Below are positions 17,548 through 42,913 of a stretch of DNA of 64,000 nucleotides, in pieces. A program made the position numbers and the translations under genes. Source of the stretch: Nitrospira sp. (GTDB lineage: Bacteria; Nitrospirota; Nitrospiria; Nitrospirales; Nitrospiraceae). The notes below the pieces were generated by a model. It worked only from the letters and a program-made list of their open reading frames with translations. It was not told the DNA's origin and did no database searches. How positions within the stretch are numbered: position 1 is the first letter of the stretch; every line of letters begins with the position of its first letter. The stretch covers positions 2,680,800 through 2,744,799 of the forward strand of contig CP126122.1 of NCBI GenBank assembly GCA_030123565.1. The letters are read 5' to 3'.

Positions 17548-18321
17548 TCAGGGCATCGTCATCGATGCCAGTTCGAGATCACGCTGTTCGACCCAGGCTC
17601 GTTGCAGATTCCCTGCCAGTCGCTTGGCGGCCTGGTCCATCGAGACGACACGGAGGGTGGTGGGAGCCGCTTCGTAGGATGGCGGCCAGATGCGACGCTC
17701 CGGATCTTGCGGCCGCAGATAAATCACCGGGTACCACTGAGAGATCCCCGGCGCTGTGGGGCTGTTCAACGTCGCCATGGCTCGCCCCTCGGCACGAAGG
17801 AGCGGCGCGCCAGTCTGTCCCTCGATCAGGGCCGCCTCGGCCAGAGACCAGTTATCGCGTTGGAATCCCGGTTGTCGGTGAGTCGTCCATCCCAGGAACA
17901 ACGACACAGGATATTCTTGTTCGGTGCTCGACAGGACGACCACCAGCACATAGTCCACCCCCTGCTGCCTGGCGACCTCGGTCCAATTCGGTGCCGCCGC
18001 CCCTGCCGGCACCTCGCCCAGATTCACCACGCGCTCGATGAGGATGGGAAACCCTCGGTTGATCTGCTCACGAAGGGTTTCGGCCAATCGCTCCTGTGCT
18101 TCCTCAGGCAGACCAGGTGCCGCGTCCGAAGCAGACCGATCGGCCAAGACAACCAGGGCCGTTCGCACGGGACGCCGGCTCGGAAGCCCGGGACCTGTCG
18201 ATTCAGCAGAAGGCGGCAACGCGACAAATTGACTCAACCGGCTCGGGGGAGCAGCCGTCGCACACCCCATCAACAGCAGTCCACCGACCAACAGTACGGC
18301 CCCGATTCCCCTCCCTCGCAT
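17548..18321 (-). CDS. Lipoprotein of unknown function
   Basis: A 257-residue protein with a lipoprotein signal: an N-terminal RGR stretch, a hydrophobic core and a lipobox LLMGC with the Cys near residue 19. The mature part is mixed alpha/beta, with segments such as 'VRTALVVLADRSA' and 'GVDYVLVVVLSSTEQEY' that suggest a Rossmann-like or CsgG-like fold, but I do not recognise a family. The start at 18321 is supported by GGGAGG about 10 bases upstream. It is divergent from the GT2 gene and follows the DegP-like promoter region. Confidence 0.65.
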   Translation of the reverse strand: MRGRGIGAVLLVGGLLLMGCATAAPPSRLSQFVALPPSAESTGPGLPSRRPVRTALVVLADRSASDAAPGLPEEAQERLAETLREQINRGFPILIERVVNLGEVPAGAAAPNWTEVARQQGVDYVLVVVLSSTEQEYPVSLFLGWTTHRQPGFQRDNWSLAEAALIEGQTGAPLLRAEGRAMATLNSPTAPGISQWYPVIYLRPQDPERRIWPPSYEAAPTTLRVVSMDQAAKRLAGNLQRAWVEQRDLELASMTMP

Positions 18322-18520
18322 CACAACACAAACCTCCCGCTCACGGACAGGACATGGAAACCGAACGTCCCTCACCATACGATCGCCTCCACTCGCAGGT
18401 CCTGTCAAGGTCCGGCACCGAATGCTTGCATTTCGTCCGCGGCTCAGCTACCGTTACGCACCGATCGTCATCGGCATGAGTCATCGGCAGCGTCTCACCC
18501 CGATCCGAGGCTGTCTCAAC

Positions 18521-19354: not shown

Positions 19355-20899
19355 TCACGATTGCCGGCGCAGGATCAACACCTTGGCATCGCCATAGAGG
19401 GTTCTCCATCCCGGTCGGCCTTCAAGCGCCTGGGCCAATGCACTCCCCTTTTGAATCACCGCCCAATCGACCCGATAGCGATCCAACACCTCCAACGCCG
19501 GCGACTCCTCGCGATTCAGTTCCACATAGTCCTGAAAAATGCGGCGATGCCCGATCCGCCAGGCCGGCATCCGGCCGTCGATGAAAATTTTCTCGCCGGG
19601 GAGTTGCCACAGCAGAAATCCGCCGTAGCCATAATCATTGTAGAGCCTGGTTCCCACTTCGTCGCGATGGCCACGGATCCAGCGCACCGCTTCGATCGGA
19701 TATTCCGTCTGCTCGAAATAGTCCTCGGAGGCGGTGCCTGATCGCCACACATGCAGCAGATGGTCCGTCCCTAAGTCATAGAGGGTACCGGCCGCCGCAA
19801 CTGCGAGCATCAAAAGACCGGCACCCCCATAGGCCCTCAACACCGGCACCCATTGCAGACAGGACGCCGTCGCAAGCGCGAGCAACTCCGCCGCCGGCGC
19901 AAGGCTGACGATCAGAAACAACGAGACATTGCGCCAATGCAGGAGCGACAACAGCAGCACGATGACGAGCACCATCCAACGGACCGGCTCCACCCGCCGA
20001 TACCATCCGGCCACAAGGCACAAGAAGCCTGCGAGGTACAGACCGTAGGCCCTGCCGGCCCACCCTTGAAAGGACACAGGCTGCCATTCCCGCAGGGTCT
20101 CGATCATGAAGCGGTCGGTGAGGGATTCATAGATCTCGACGTAGAGTCGCCAGCCGTATGGATTGAGACAGGTCACCGCCGCGGCGATCCCGAGCGCGAA
20201 CATACAACGACGAAGATCCTCCCAACTCAGGACCGGCTCGTCCAGCCACGTTGCAAGGGCCGGCCGCCGATCCACACCAATCCTCACGAGGAGAGACAGG
20301 CAGAGCAGCAGAGCGAACAGAAAGAGCCCCGCTGTAAACCCTCCGTGCAGGTTGGCCCATAACAAGAATAACGGCGGCAACGTCCACAACCATCGACGAC
20401 GGCCCTGCTGAATACGGCTCCACAGCTGTAACAGGACCGCCACGCCGAGGAGACTGACCAGTTGCGTGCGGGCGCCGAGAAAGGGCAACGCGACCCACAG
20501 GCTCGCCACCATGGCTACCAGTCGATAGGTCCGGCGCACCGGAGCAAGTCCCGCCGCCAGCCACCAGCCCAGGGCCGTCACCCCTCCAAAAAACAGGATC
20601 AACCCCAGCCCGCCGAATAGCCCCAGCCCACGATATAGAAGCGCCAACAGTCCGTCGGTCAACCAGGCATGTTCGACCCAACGCCAATCAGGCATCGTGT
20701 GGGAATAGGGATCGGTCTCCGGTAAGGTCCATCCCTGGGCAATCAGATCCAGTCCGGCACGGAGATGCCAGCCCAAATCCGGCTCCACGAGCGGCTGGAG
20801 CGTCAGGTTCATCACGAAGCCGAACAGGAGCATGTCCAGCAATAGGCCGATGAACTGCTGAGAGCGGGGGACAGAGAACCGGACAGGCTCAGTGTTCAT
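19355..20899 (-). CDS. Polytopic membrane protein, possible lipid-linked glycosyltransferase
   Basis: A 514-residue protein with roughly eleven membrane helices and a soluble C-terminal domain of about 120 residues. The early loop 'LVEPDLGWHLRAGLDLIAQG' followed by 'DPYSHTMPDWRWVEHAWL' resembles the acidic, catalytic first loop of GT-C and PMT-like enzymes. The C-terminal part 'YNDYGYGGFLLWQLPGEKIFIDGRMP' is a conserved segment seen in uncharacterised bacterial homologues. It overlaps the carbamoyltransferase by 11 bases in the same direction, so it is translated from the same transcript. Function is inferred, not shown. Confidence 0.7.
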   Translation of the reverse strand: MNTEPVRFSVPRSQQFIGLLLDMLLFGFVMNLTLQPLVEPDLGWHLRAGLDLIAQGWTLPETDPYSHTMPDWRWVEHAWLTDGLLALLYRGLGLFGGLGLILFFGGVTALGWWLAAGLAPVRRTYRLVAMVASLWVALPFLGARTQLVSLLGVAVLLQLWSRIQQGRRRWLWTLPPLFLLWANLHGGFTAGLFLFALLLCLSLLVRIGVDRRPALATWLDEPVLSWEDLRRCMFALGIAAAVTCLNPYGWRLYVEIYESLTDRFMIETLREWQPVSFQGWAGRAYGLYLAGFLCLVAGWYRRVEPVRWMVLVIVLLLSLLHWRNVSLFLIVSLAPAAELLALATASCLQWVPVLRAYGGAGLLMLAVAAAGTLYDLGTDHLLHVWRSGTASEDYFEQTEYPIEAVRWIRGHRDEVGTRLYNDYGYGGFLLWQLPGEKIFIDGRMPAWRIGHRRIFQDYVELNREESPALEVLDRYRVDWAVIQKGSALAQALEGRPGWRTLYGDAKVLILRRQS

Positions 20900-22622: not shown

Positions 22623-22785
22623 GATGGTTCAGCAGCCTCCTTGTTCATCATCACAACAGGACCATGCAGCGGGTAGAATAAACGAGCCCCCTGAGGGTCG
22701 CAAGCCGCCAAGGCAGTCGGTTGCAATGCCCCTTCCTTTCCTGTACGGTTCCTCTTCCGACGTACGCCGTAGAGGAGGCCTCTGC

Positions 22786-24648
22786 TTGAAGACGCACCAT
22801 CTACTCATCCTCGGAGTGCTGCTGGTCCACGCGCTGACCTCCACAGGATGCGAAAGCATCAAATCACGCTTTGCCCGCCCGACATTGCCGGACCTCGGCC
22901 CGCCGGTTCCCCTCACCGTCCAAATGGATCTCGACCCGTCGCTGTCCCAGGCCAAGACCCAGTACCTCGACAGTTGCAGCCGCTTCCAACCGCTCTCGAT
23001 CGGTCCGACGGTCGAAGACCTGTTGGTTCAAGCCGCCCATCAAACCTTCCGCACCGTCGTGATTCAAGGCGGTCATGTCACCGGTGCGAAACCGGACGTG
23101 ACCGTGCGGATACGCCTATTGGATCCCAGGCTGAAAATTCAAGCTGACAGCCTCTACGATCGCGCCCCCGCGGAACTGAGTTTGGACGCCATCGCAGAAT
23201 TTTTCGATCCATCGGGCAAACTGCTGGCCGAGCGGCCGTTGCAAGCCACGCGGAAAGAGCGGCTGCATGTAGAACTGACCCAGCAGCGATGCGACTATGT
23301 CATCGATCCCTTCGTCCAGGACACCTCGGCCATGCTGGCCGCACAGTTCATGCAAGAGGCGCGAGTGCTCCTCGACCCGACCGCCAAGACATCGACCGGT
23401 GAACCACTCGTTGCCGCTGCCGGAGCCGCTTCGAAACCGGCGGTACCGCAGACTGCGCCGCAAGCCCCACCGGCTCAAGCCTTATCCTTTAAGGCCACGC
23501 TGTTGGACGAGAACAGCAACATGATTCTGGAAGGCGGCGAACGCCTGCGCGTGCGGGTCGATGTCGTCAACGCCGGTCCTCAGGCCTTACAAGACGTGGT
23601 CGTTGAACTGGCGGGTCCGCCGACGTTGATGACCCAGTTTCCGGCGACGAAACTGTCCGTCGGCGGCATCGAGGCGGGCGGCTCCAAGTCCCTCGAATTC
23701 ATCGCCACCCTGCCCCCATCGCTGCCTCCGCAACAAGCCGAATTTCAGGTGTCTGTCACTAGCGGACTCGGCCAAGGCGCCCCCCCTCCACAGACGTTGC
23801 TCGCCTCGGTACGGCCGGCCGGCATGAAGGCTGACGATGTAGACCAGATTCCCATCGTGCCCCCGGGGATTCAGCGACCGGGAGACTATCTGCTCTCGAT
23901 CGGCCTCAGCAGTTACCGGGAACAGCATATTCCGGCGCGCAAATATGCGGCCCTCGATGCAGAAATGGTCGCGGCCTATTTTCAATCGCTGGGTGGATTG
24001 CCGCGGAGCAACGTTCGATTGATGCAAGACCGGAGCGCGTTACGCCCCGATATTGAAGAAGCCTTGCTCGATTGGCTGCCGTCAAAAATCACGAAGGACT
24101 CGCTCGTCGTCGTCTATTTCGCCGGCCAGGCGATGGTTTCATCGACCGGCGACACCTTTCTGATTCCCTATGACGGTTCCCTGGGAGCGACCACACGCCT
24201 CTATCCGCTCAAAGACCTGGAGACAGCCTTGAGCAGACTCAAGGCCAAACAGGTTCTGTTCCTGTTCGACGGAACCGTGCTCAAAAACGGAGCCGACGGA
24301 CGGACGAAAACTCCGTCACCGAAATGGACGGGAACAGGCGGGTCGATCCTCCAGTTGATCTCCACCACCGGCTTCGGGAAAAGCTTGGAATCGGACACGT
24401 GGCGCCACGGATTGTTCACCTATTACTTATTGCGAGGCCTTCGCGGTGACGCCGACCTCAACCGTAACGGGGAGGTGACGATCGGGGAGGTGACCACCTA
24501 TGTCAATCAGAAGGTGCCGGCGGCTGCGCGCGGCGACTTCAAGCAGGAACAACAACCGCAAGCTCTGCCTGCGTTGCGCTCCTCGGATAGGGGCCTGGAC
24601 ATGATGCTTACCAAGGCCGCCATCGTCCCGATCATCGCACAACCGTAG
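22786..24648 (+). CDS. Caspase-fold (C14-like) lipoprotein, catalytically degenerate
   Basis: About 620 residues. A lipoprotein signal ends in Cys22 (TSTGC). A beta-rich region of about 230 residues follows, then an immunoglobulin-like 'VDVVNAGPQALQDVVVEL' domain, then a caspase-like domain from about residue 405. Sequence around the catalytic sites is well conserved ('VVVYFAG', 'GDTFLIPYDG', 'KQVLFLFD'), but the catalytic His is Gln448 and the Cys is Thr497, so it should not cleave. A calcium-loop-like 'DADLNRNGEVT' lies near residues 565-580. TTG at 22786 is chosen because AGAGGAGG lies 7 bases upstream and a perfect lipoprotein signal begins there. It is divergent from the carbamoyltransferase. 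Confidence 0.82.
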   Translation: MKTHHLLILGVLLVHALTSTGCESIKSRFARPTLPDLGPPVPLTVQMDLDPSLSQAKTQYLDSCSRFQPLSIGPTVEDLLVQAAHQTFRTVVIQGGHVTGAKPDVTVRIRLLDPRLKIQADSLYDRAPAELSLDAIAEFFDPSGKLLAERPLQATRKERLHVELTQQRCDYVIDPFVQDTSAMLAAQFMQEARVLLDPTAKTSTGEPLVAAAGAASKPAVPQTAPQAPPAQALSFKATLLDENSNMILEGGERLRVRVDVVNAGPQALQDVVVELAGPPTLMTQFPATKLSVGGIEAGGSKSLEFIATLPPSLPPQQAEFQVSVTSGLGQGAPPPQTLLASVRPAGMKADDVDQIPIVPPGIQRPGDYLLSIGLSSYREQHIPARKYAALDAEMVAAYFQSLGGLPRSNVRLMQDRSALRPDIEEALLDWLPSKITKDSLVVVYFAGQAMVSSTGDTFLIPYDGSLGATTRLYPLKDLETALSRLKAKQVLFLFDGTVLKNGADGRTKTPSPKWTGTGGSILQLISTTGFGKSLESDTWRHGLFTYYLLRGLRGDADLNRNGEVTIGEVTTYVNQKVPAAARGDFKQEQQPQALPALRSSDRGLDMMLTKAAIVPIIAQP

Positions 24649-24811: not shown

Positions 24812-25264
24812 CTACTCTTCCCCGCCCTTGCAGAAGCTGCGCTCGTAATTGATGATGGTCCAGGCTTCTTCTTCCGTGATCGCCGCAGGGACCAAGGACA
24901 CCATGCCGGTGCCGGGGCTGCCGTTCTTGATCACCCAGAACAGCTCGCCGTCTTTCCGCTTCTTGTGGAATTTGCAGTTGGTGAAATTTCGCGGGCTCGG
25001 ATTCAGGATCGCGCCGGCAGGACCGTCGCCCTTCCCTTCCTTCCCATGGCAATTGAAACAGGTGCCCTTCCCCTCGAACAGTGCCTTGCCCTTTGCAATG
25101 CTCTCTGGATTCGAGGCCACCGGATTCTTCATCGCCTTGGCATCCGCCATCTGATCCGGCGGAACGCGCGGCTTCAACGGGTCCTTTTCTTCCGCTCCCA
25201 CCACCGTCACGGACAACAAGGTGACGGCCGCACACACTCCCAAAAACTTAGAAAGATACCCCAT
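24812..25264 (-). CDS. Periplasmic monoheme cytochrome c
   Basis: A 150-residue class-I-like cytochrome. A signal peptide covers about residues 1-23 (ending near VVGA). The single heme site CFNCH is near residues 67-71 in 'GKGTCFNCHGKEGKGDGPAG'. 'GSPGTGMVSLVPAAITEEE' carries a Met suited to be the sixth ligand. Two further Cys ('NCKFHKK' and 'SFCKGG') may form a disulfide. AAGGAGGAG precedes the ATG at 25264; an upstream in-frame ATG is not needed. A near-consensus promoter and a strong terminator frame it as a single, probably well-expressed gene. Likely a periplasmic electron shuttle. Confidence 0.9.
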   Translation of the reverse strand: MGYLSKFLGVCAAVTLLSVTVVGAEEKDPLKPRVPPDQMADAKAMKNPVASNPESIAKGKALFEGKGTCFNCHGKEGKGDGPAGAILNPSPRNFTNCKFHKKRKDGELFWVIKNGSPGTGMVSLVPAAITEEEAWTIINYERSFCKGGEE

Positions 25265-25365
25265 CACAACTCCTCCTTTGTGTTGAATCCACTGCGCGAA
25301 CAACCACTCTGTTGTACGAGACCGCTCCGGAAATAAATCGAACACCAGGCCGATAAAGCAGGCGA

Positions 25366-40749: not shown

Positions 40750-40847
40750 CCTTACACCTTACACCTTCGCTGTCCGCAGCCGTCGCCGTGCGGACTCGAC
40801 TATAGCCAAGCTTCCATCTCAACACAACGCATCGTCCCCGACTTACC

Positions 40848-40876
40848 TTGACACCCCTGCACCTGTTTCCTATAGT
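40848..40876 (+). promoter_or_regulatory. Near-consensus sigma-70 promoter for the LpoA-like gene
   Basis: TTGACA and TATAGT are separated by exactly 17 bases. Transcription would start near 40883, leaving a 36-base leader with AGGAG before the ATG at 40919. It closely resembles the cytochrome c promoter at 25366-25395. Confidence 0.82.
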
Positions 40877-40918
40877 AGTTTCGATCGCGGCGAGAGCGTT
40901 CGCCATGCACAGGAGTCA

Positions 40919-42913
40919 ATGGTTTCTCGATCAGTATCCCGCGCCCCGCATCTCCGCGCATGCAGCGTCACCTTCGCGGTGGCGTTCCTCGCAGGCCTCG
41001 TCACGTTCGTCGAAGCGGCCCCCACACCCAAGGCACCTGCGGCGCCCCGCGCAAAAGAATCGAAATCGCCGACCGGCACCGGCCAATCCACCTTAGACCA
41101 GGCCAAACGGCTGATCGACTCGGAACAACCGGAAGCCGCGGCGGTTACGTTGCGTCGTTTCATTGAAAGCAACCCCGGTCCTGACCTCCTCGACGACGCC
41201 TATCTCCTGATGGCCGCCGCCATGTTCGGCATGAAGGAACAGGCGGAAACGATCCGCTACGTGAATCAACTGCTCGGTGAATTCCCGACTTCAGAGTTGG
41301 TCGATCGAGCCAAGCTCTTGCTCGCCAAAACCCATGCCAGAGCCGGCAATCTCGACCTGGCCCTCCCGTTGCTGTCCGAAGTCCGCAGCCTCTCCACCGA
41401 TCCCAATACGAAACGGGATGCGCTGCGGCTCATCGGTGAATTCCAGGCGCAGAAGAAAGATTACCTGCGGGCCATTCAGGCCTGGCTCGATGAGATGCCG
41501 CTGGATGTCGGGGACCAGGCGCATGAAACCGAAGGGCAGATCAGAGAGCTGGTCAACGACAAGTTGGACATCCCGGCGCTCGTGCGGGTGCGTGACGCCT
41601 ATCCCAAAACATTCCCAGGCGACTTGGCTTCCATCAAACTCATCGACCTCCATACGGCGGCCGGAGACGACCATTTGGTGGAGCGGGACCTTCGACTGTT
41701 TTTGAGCCGTTTTCCCCACCATCCCTACGCCGCGAAGGCAACCGAACTGCAGACGGCCGTGCGGACGAAATTCAAATCGCACCCCTACTCCATCGCCGCC
41801 ATCTTTCCCATGTCCGGCAAGCTGGCCCCCTTCGGCACCGAAGTCTTGAACGGCATTCAACTCGCGCTGGAGCAAGCGAAGGACGGCACCGACGCGACGT
41901 CGATCGGCTTGATCGTGAAGGATACGGAGGCGGACCGCGCGGCCTTTCTCGACGAACTGTCCAACGTGTTGGCGGACGATCACCCCCTCGCCGTCATCGG
42001 CCCGCTGCTCTCGAAAAATCTCCCGGTCATGGCCGAGATGGCCGAACGGACGCGCATTCCGCTGATCACGCCCAGCGCGACCGTGACGAATCTTCGCCGG
42101 CTCGGCACGTACGTCTTCAGCACGGCGCTCACCTACGGGCACCAGGCCAAACGAGTGGCGGACTATGCGATCCGTGACCAGCATTACAAGCGGCTGGCGA
42201 TTCTCTACCCCGACACCGTCTACGGGCGTGAACTGGCGCACCTGTTCGCGCAAGAAATCCGACAGCAAGAAGGGGAACTCATCGCGAGCGAAGCCTACAA
42301 GGAAGGCGAGACGGACTTCCGGGCGGTGATCGCCAAGCTTAAGGCGGAAGACCTCAAGAAATACGGCCTCGAAGTGCCGATCGAGAACGATCCCGCGAAA
42401 GCAGCCGCCAAACCGAACGGGAAAAAGAACAAGCGCATCCTCTATTCGCCGGGGTTCGACGCCGTCTTCATCCCGGGACGTTCGCTCGACGTCGGACTCT
42501 TGGCGGCCCAGTTGGCCTTTCACGATATCGCCGTCCCGTTGCTCGGCACCAATGGATGGAACACCCCCGACTTCGCACGCGTGGCGGATCGCAGCGTCGA
42601 GGGCAGCGTGTTCGTCGACGGGTTCTTTGCCGACAGCAGCAGTCCGGTGGTGCAGGATTTCGTCGAGCGGTATCGCAAGCGATTTCAAAGTACCCCCTCG
42701 CTGTTCGCCGCCCAGGGGTACGATGCCGCGCGGTTGGCCGTGGAAGCGGTCAAGCGAGGAGCGACGACTGGAGAAGCCGTCCGCGACTACCTGTTGATGC
42801 AGCATGATCTCCCGACCTTGAGCGGCCCCAGCGGGTTCAGCCCCGACGGCACGCTCAATCGCCATGTGTTTCTCATTCAGGTGAAACAAGGTAAATTCGT
42901 CCCACTGGACTGA
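40919..42913 (+). CDS. LpoA/LppC-like protein: TPR domain plus periplasmic-binding domain
   Basis: About 664 residues. A signal peptide spans about residues 1-33. Residues 50-280 form helical TPR-like repeats, and residues 285-660 a type-1 periplasmic-binding fold ('IAAIFPMSGKLAPFGTEVLNGIQLALEQAKDG', 'PLITPSATVTNL', 'RLAILYPDTVYGRELAHLF'). TPR plus this fold is the architecture of LpoA, the outer-membrane activator of penicillin-binding protein 1A. No lipobox Cys follows the signal, so it is probably soluble or differently anchored. The branched-chain amino-acid binding proteins are the nearest alternative. AGGAG precedes the chosen ATG. Confidence 0.8.
   Translation: MVSRSVSRAPHLRACSVTFAVAFLAGLVTFVEAAPTPKAPAAPRAKESKSPTGTGQSTLDQAKRLIDSEQPEAAAVTLRRFIESNPGPDLLDDAYLLMAAAMFGMKEQAETIRYVNQLLGEFPTSELVDRAKLLLAKTHARAGNLDLALPLLSEVRSLSTDPNTKRDALRLIGEFQAQKKDYLRAIQAWLDEMPLDVGDQAHETEGQIRELVNDKLDIPALVRVRDAYPKTFPGDLASIKLIDLHTAAGDDHLVERDLRLFLSRFPHHPYAAKATELQTAVRTKFKSHPYSIAAIFPMSGKLAPFGTEVLNGIQLALEQAKDGTDATSIGLIVKDTEADRAAFLDELSNVLADDHPLAVIGPLLSKNLPVMAEMAERTRIPLITPSATVTNLRRLGTYVFSTALTYGHQAKRVADYAIRDQHYKRLAILYPDTVYGRELAHLFAQEIRQQEGELIASEAYKEGETDFRAVIAKLKAEDLKKYGLEVPIENDPAKAAAKPNGKKNKRILYSPGFDAVFIPGRSLDVGLLAAQLAFHDIAVPLLGTNGWNTPDFARVADRSVEGSVFVDGFFADSSSPVVQDFVERYRKRFQSTPSLFAAQGYDAARLAVEAVKRGATTGEAVRDYLLMQHDLPTLSGPSGFSPDGTLNRHVFLIQVKQGKFVPLD

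Follow-up and report, generated by a model that had tools for sequence, protein, structure and literature searches.

What does a bacterium do with a caspase fold whose catalytic residues have been replaced? The question is raised by a lipoprotein gene of Nitrospira sp., found in a 64,000-nucleotide stretch of contig CP126122.1 (hereafter the window), which belongs to a complete, 4.62-Mb genome. Pseudo-orthocaspases are already known in cyanobacteria and alphaproteobacteria (PMC6426788), and one of them, SyOC, has been studied by knock-out (PMC7889975); Nitrospira is unnamed in the former work. In an earlier survey, the share of intact dyads in Nitrospirae was 57%, among the lowest recorded (PMC3501461).

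Gene and domain architecture

The original prediction described the reading frame as a lipoprotein tethered at Cys22, with a caspase-like domain in which both catalytic residues are replaced. Its coordinates and residue numbers were correct, including VVVYFAGQ with Gln448 and KQVLFLFDGT with Thr497. The TTG start was invariant in 27 of 27 close homologues, each time behind a GAGGAGG-type ribosome site. The gene comprises the following features:

22772-22778, plus strand: Shine-Dalgarno sequence GAGGAGG, 7 nt upstream of the start, kept in homologues
22786-24648, plus strand: pseudo-caspase lipoprotein gene, TTG start, 620 aa and stop (coding part 22786-24645)
22786-22851, plus strand: signal peptide and lipobox up to Cys22 (LTSTGC22), from the sequence and its homologues
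22906-23373, plus strand: N-domain, residues 41-196, with a CsgG/LptE/PqiC/PelC-like lipoprotein fold according to the AF2 model and structure matches
23479-23820, plus strand: Ig-like (CARDB-type) domain, residues 232-345, from a CARDB match in 9 of 16 homologues and strands in the model
23506-23541, plus strand: calcium-type loop DENSNMILEGGE, residues 241-252, within the Ig domain, with conserved D241, N243, E249 and E252
23878-24618, plus strand: caspase-fold (C14) pseudo-protease domain, residues 365-611, from Pfam/NCBIfam in part, the AF2 model and a structure match
24454-24489, plus strand: EF-hand-type loop DLNRNGEVTIGE, residues 557-568, within the C14 domain, where all 110 pseudo sequences have D557 and E568

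The lipid anchor was borne out, the lipobox cysteine being detected with a simple pattern script in 75 of 83 sequences of family A, to which the window protein belongs; several of the remaining sequences are truncated. Modelled alone with AF2, the N-domain reached a pLDDT of 85.7, and comparison of this model with solved structures (Z 9-12 overall) assigns it to the CsgG/LptE/PqiC-like fold, with 2iqi (PqiC-type, DUF330; Z 11.9), CsgG (11.3), PelC (10.4) and LptE (10.2) as matches. It thus shares both fold and lipid anchor with these outer-membrane lipoproteins, with no sequence family match to them detectable; to our knowledge, none of them carries a fused Ig or caspase domain. Cys64 and Cys169 of the N-domain hardly vary in families A, B and f4, whereas f2 lacks the second cysteine; a disulphide between them would fit a location in the envelope. 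A variable linker (residues 201-231) precedes the Ig domain.

The C-terminal domain is recognised more readily by structure than by sequence. The window protein alone had no Pfam match at E 1, nor did it reach the curated cut-off of PF00656 (Peptidase_C14), a family matched by 9 of 16 homologues (best 1.3e-8). NCBIfam model NF047832 (caspase, EACC1-associated) matched residues 372-579 at 2.6e-10 and 40.2 bits, under its 140-bit cut-off, and a sequence search of solved structures returned nothing useful, only weak EF-hand matches. The full-length AF2 model was moderately confident (mean pLDDT 70; pTM 0.47, so that domain packing is not to be read from it). Its residues 362-614 aligned onto whole caspase domains, matching caspases, MALT1 and metacaspases at Z 16-18, and the best match was Arabidopsis metacaspase-4 (6w8s; Z 18.0, rmsd 2.8 over 208 residues). 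The caspase fold that had been anticipated (clan CD, C14) is therefore the one predicted.

A calcium-loop-like motif had also been noted; it is present, although as two loops rather than one. The loop in the C14 domain fits the EF-hand-type pattern DxNxNGxVxxxE and may bind calcium. Both loops also occur in active relatives.

Loss of the dyad and selection on the domain

Three positions describe the dead site:

24127-24129, plus strand: Gln448, at the catalytic His position in the alignment
24274-24276, plus strand: Thr497, at the catalytic Cys position in the alignment
24325-24327, plus strand: Trp514, invariant across the pseudo clades (110 of 110 pseudo sequences vs 0 of 10 active ones)

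The protein occurs across nitrite-oxidising Nitrospira and the rest of the order; about 155 of the 175 Nitrospiraceae genomes carry a full-length orthologue (counted at E < 1e-85, with a few split or partial). Among the 83 sequences of family A, Gln occupies the His position in 67, His in 6, Leu in 5, Val in 2, and Met, Ser and Thr in one each; the residues seen at the Cys position are Thr (31), Met (20), Ser (8), Ala (7), Ile (6) and others including Leu, Lys, Gly and Pro. Cysteine at position 497 was found in none of the 83, so the loss of the dyad is neither a sequencing artefact nor chance. The surrounding motifs have changed as well, GHG to GQA and DSCFSG to DG(T/M)V, or DGTVLK over its full length, and hence the oxyanion-hole and pocket loop of the active enzymes is altered. 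With Gln448 and Thr497, the protein lacks the His-Cys dyad of a Peptidase C14 protease and has the make-up of a pseudo-orthocaspase, a class defined by a p20-type domain in which either or both residues of the dyad are replaced. These data support its classification as a pseudo-caspase. The loss is kept across orthologues, as the original prediction expected; orthologues with both His and Cys, which would have spoken against it, were absent, intact homologues appearing only as an outgroup.

A second full-length copy in this genome, the paralogue of family B (40774-42657, L073), has Arg at the His site and Ser at the Cys site; throughout that family, the residues are Arg/Lys and Ser, respectively (14 of 14 for each). 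Further families of the order carry the dead-site pairs Gln/His-Pro (f4) and Asn-Ser (f2). Among proteins with an intact dyad (YYAGHG/LDSCFSG), the nearest are the Ig+C14 proteins found in other Nitrospirota (L212-L219, L230), the sister group. They share the Ig domain with its DxNxN..LEGGE loop, the linker and the C14 domain, but they lack W514 and their N-terminal parts differ, consisting of WD40-like repeats or other lipoprotein regions.

In a tree of 120 rows built without the two dyad columns, all 82 Nitrospirales pseudo sequences formed one clade (100/100) adjoining the intact Ig+C14 proteins. The Cys state requires 2 changes in total on this tree, in this Nitrospirales clade and in unrelated TPR proteins, vs 9 for the His state. 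The simplest reading of these counts is a single early loss of Cys at the base of the Nitrospirales clade, accompanied by the new invariant W514, with the His position drifting later. The ancestor of the pseudo-caspase lipoprotein would then be a protease of the Ig+C14 type, which has kept its dyad in other Nitrospirota.

Selection has continued to act on the domain after the loss, in line with the purifying selection foreseen for it. Pairwise dN/dS of the C14 region was 0.07-0.23 in eleven close pairs, about as low as in the N-domain and the Ig domain, and the linker was mostly looser (0.1-1.3). Near the dead site, G496, A449, W514 and R385 are new invariant residues, G496 and R385 being fixed in family A. 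In family A, the two calcium-type loops hardly change, and acidic pocket positions have also been kept (D391 in 83 of 83; D495 as Asp or Glu in 83 of 83); by motif, these positions probably correspond to the S1 Asp residues of cyanobacterial pseudo-orthocaspases (PMC6426788). D391 is lost in f4.

The domain could nonetheless be an evolutionary leftover, kept for folding or stability while the N-domain and the Ig domain do the work. Both catalytic positions drift among many residues, and genus g37 of f4 (proteins of 368-372 aa) and one g15 clade lack the domain altogether, with N-domain and Ig domain kept. Against this stand the dN/dS values, which are similar to those of the other domains, and the invariance of W514, G496 and R385; new invariant residues near a dead site would not be expected of a mere relic. 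We consider the leftover reading rather improbable. Loss in two lineages suggests a domain that is useful in most lineages, in a role that is not essential everywhere.

The C14-less reading frames of g37 and the g15 clade measure 362-441 aa, some with a stop codon directly after the Ig domain. Homologues L208-L210 and L242-L246 end right after it, which points to at least two losses of the pseudo-caspase domain; L242 and L243 contain, further downstream, a second and shorter Ig copy.

Gene neighbourhood and other C14 proteins

In most genera, the gene order is TatC, HtrA, a small lipoprotein, then GT2, a membrane protein and a carbamoyltransferase, and then the pseudo-caspase gene, beyond which the opposite strand carries cytochrome c, RodZ-like and TPR genes and two that we take, from their sequences, to be PfkB and MTAP. 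Two neighbours recur below:

24812-25345, minus strand: cytochrome c gene (cytochrome-579-like), convergent, the most constant neighbour
17548-18408, minus strand: small lipoprotein gene, divergent from the pseudo-caspase gene with nothing between them in f4 and in some g15 genomes

A connection to the carbamoyltransferase and the adjacent membrane gene, hinted at in the original prediction, found no support: these are not constant neighbours, and the carbamoyltransferase is missing beside many orthologues. In several g15 loci, all three of the GT2, membrane protein and carbamoyltransferase genes are missing between the lipoprotein and pseudo-caspase genes, and a functional link was rejected; since they can be missing, these genes are better regarded as insertions in a stable chromosomal place than as partners. 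The membrane protein adjoining the carbamoyltransferase (window 19355-20899) is multi-pass and had no significant Pfam/NCBIfam match. The small lipoprotein, too, lacked a Pfam match, and several f4 genomes have it in two copies, divergent from their pseudo-caspase homologue; it was rejected as a relative of the N-domain, with a profile comparison probability of 0.6%.

In 37 of the 44 loci, the cytochrome c neighbour falls into the same BLAST cluster, and the one in the window most resembles cytochrome 579 (NF033864, 5.6e-44, below the cut-off). Family B lies after a cluster with a cytochrome bd-like gene and multiple cytochrome c genes; ahead of the paralogue, L196:1483-6698 encodes a cytochrome bd-like subunit, cytochromes c including a diheme c, and an ethylbenzene-dehydrogenase-like (EB_dh) haem protein. 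These surroundings of both paralogues might suggest that the proteins are part of an envelope electron-transport module. However, the cytochrome gene of family A is convergent in nearly all genomes, and so is not co-transcribed with it, and f4 homologues have no cytochrome gene. An opposite-strand UbiA-like gene parts family B from its cluster in many genomes, which also weakens the idea of a single operon there. Membership of such a module is thus unlikely.

With an intact C14 domain as query, the complete genome yielded four C14 proteins: A, B, the TPR protein L002 and L001. L001 alone is intact (YSGHGG, SDSCHSG), and by eye it has no signal peptide. L002 (C1:2220723-2221403, minus strand) is an exported-looking caspase-TPR protein that has kept His (FFAGHA) and has Asn for Cys (FDANVRG), and its homologue L063 has Gly at the Cys position; with L002, this genome holds dead C14 proteins of three kinds. 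With three of the four C14-fold proteins devoid of the catalytic Cys, the low share of intact dyads in the Nitrospirae is partly explained.

Pairs of a pseudo-enzyme and an active caspase are known in animals, and a regulatory partnership with an active caspase-fold protease, like that of c-FLIP with caspase-8, could be imagined here, as one intact C14 protein is available. Pseudo-caspases of the c-FLIP type likewise retain a dead caspase fold for binding, but they are cytosolic and paired with an active caspase, and an exported partner of such a kind was not found in this genome. The genome has just four C14 proteins, L001 appears to lack a signal peptide, and the search detected no exported or envelope C14 protein with an intact dyad. 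A role in regulating a secreted caspase is therefore very unlikely in this organism.

A probable non-cutting caspase fold in the envelope

That the protein is still an enzyme with another nucleophile, Thr497 (Ser in the paralogue) for Cys and Gln448 or Arg for His, is highly improbable: the Ser and Arg/Lys pair is fixed in family B and Thr is the commonest residue in family A, but the Cys site of family A also accepts Met, Ala, Ile, Leu, Lys, Gly and Pro, its His site Leu, Val and Met, and both active-site motifs are rewritten.

Because the catalytic Cys has been lost and the domain is still under selection, the C14 domain most likely serves for binding or as a scaffold, and not as a protease. 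The scaffold or sensor role put forward in the original prediction is still a proposal. The reading we favour, and hold to be probable, is a non-proteolytic, lipid-anchored envelope protein with the pseudo-caspase domain as scaffold or receptor, and the synteny conserved over most genera was counted in its favour. The lipid and the CsgG/LptE/PqiC-like domain would place the protein on the periplasmic side of the outer membrane, and the N-domain may bind partners or oligomerise, as its fold does within outer-membrane assemblies in known proteins. The Ig domain would act as a spacer, calcium may stiffen the pseudo-caspase domain, and the old substrate groove could hold a protein or basic peptide, uncut, as a scaffold or receptor would. 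Asp at +2 in 14 of the 75 detected lipoboxes counts against this siting, since the E. coli rule would give the inner membrane.

A fuller history can be offered only tentatively. In the ancestor of the Nitrospirales, an exported Nitrospirota caspase-fold protease may have become a calcium-stabilised receptor that holds a peptide or protein without cutting it, seated on an oligomeric lipoprotein base in the outer membrane, through one loss of Cys, the gain of W514 and a CsgG/PqiC-like fusion, followed by the A/B duplication with different dead sites.

The lipoprotein family is a new form of the known pseudo-orthocaspases (PMC6426788; PMC7889975), with which it shares a bacterial caspase fold without the His-Cys dyad, lineage conservation and acidic S1 positions. 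Those known pairs are mainly Tyr-Ser, Tyr-Asn and Phe-Ser, whereas here they are Gln-Thr/Met/Ser/Ala (A), Arg-Ser (B), Gln/His-Pro (f4) and Asn-Ser (f2), and, unlike in the known proteins, the C14 domain forms the C-terminal part, behind a lipoprotein domain and an Ig domain. No earlier description of the Nitrospira family was found in the open-licence literature searched. The family offers a natural case in which the death of a protease can be traced to a single branch, with intact living relatives on the other side. A globally important order of nitrifiers keeps the dead domain under selection, and some of its lineages then discard it, so that the use of a dead caspase fold in bacteria becomes a testable question.
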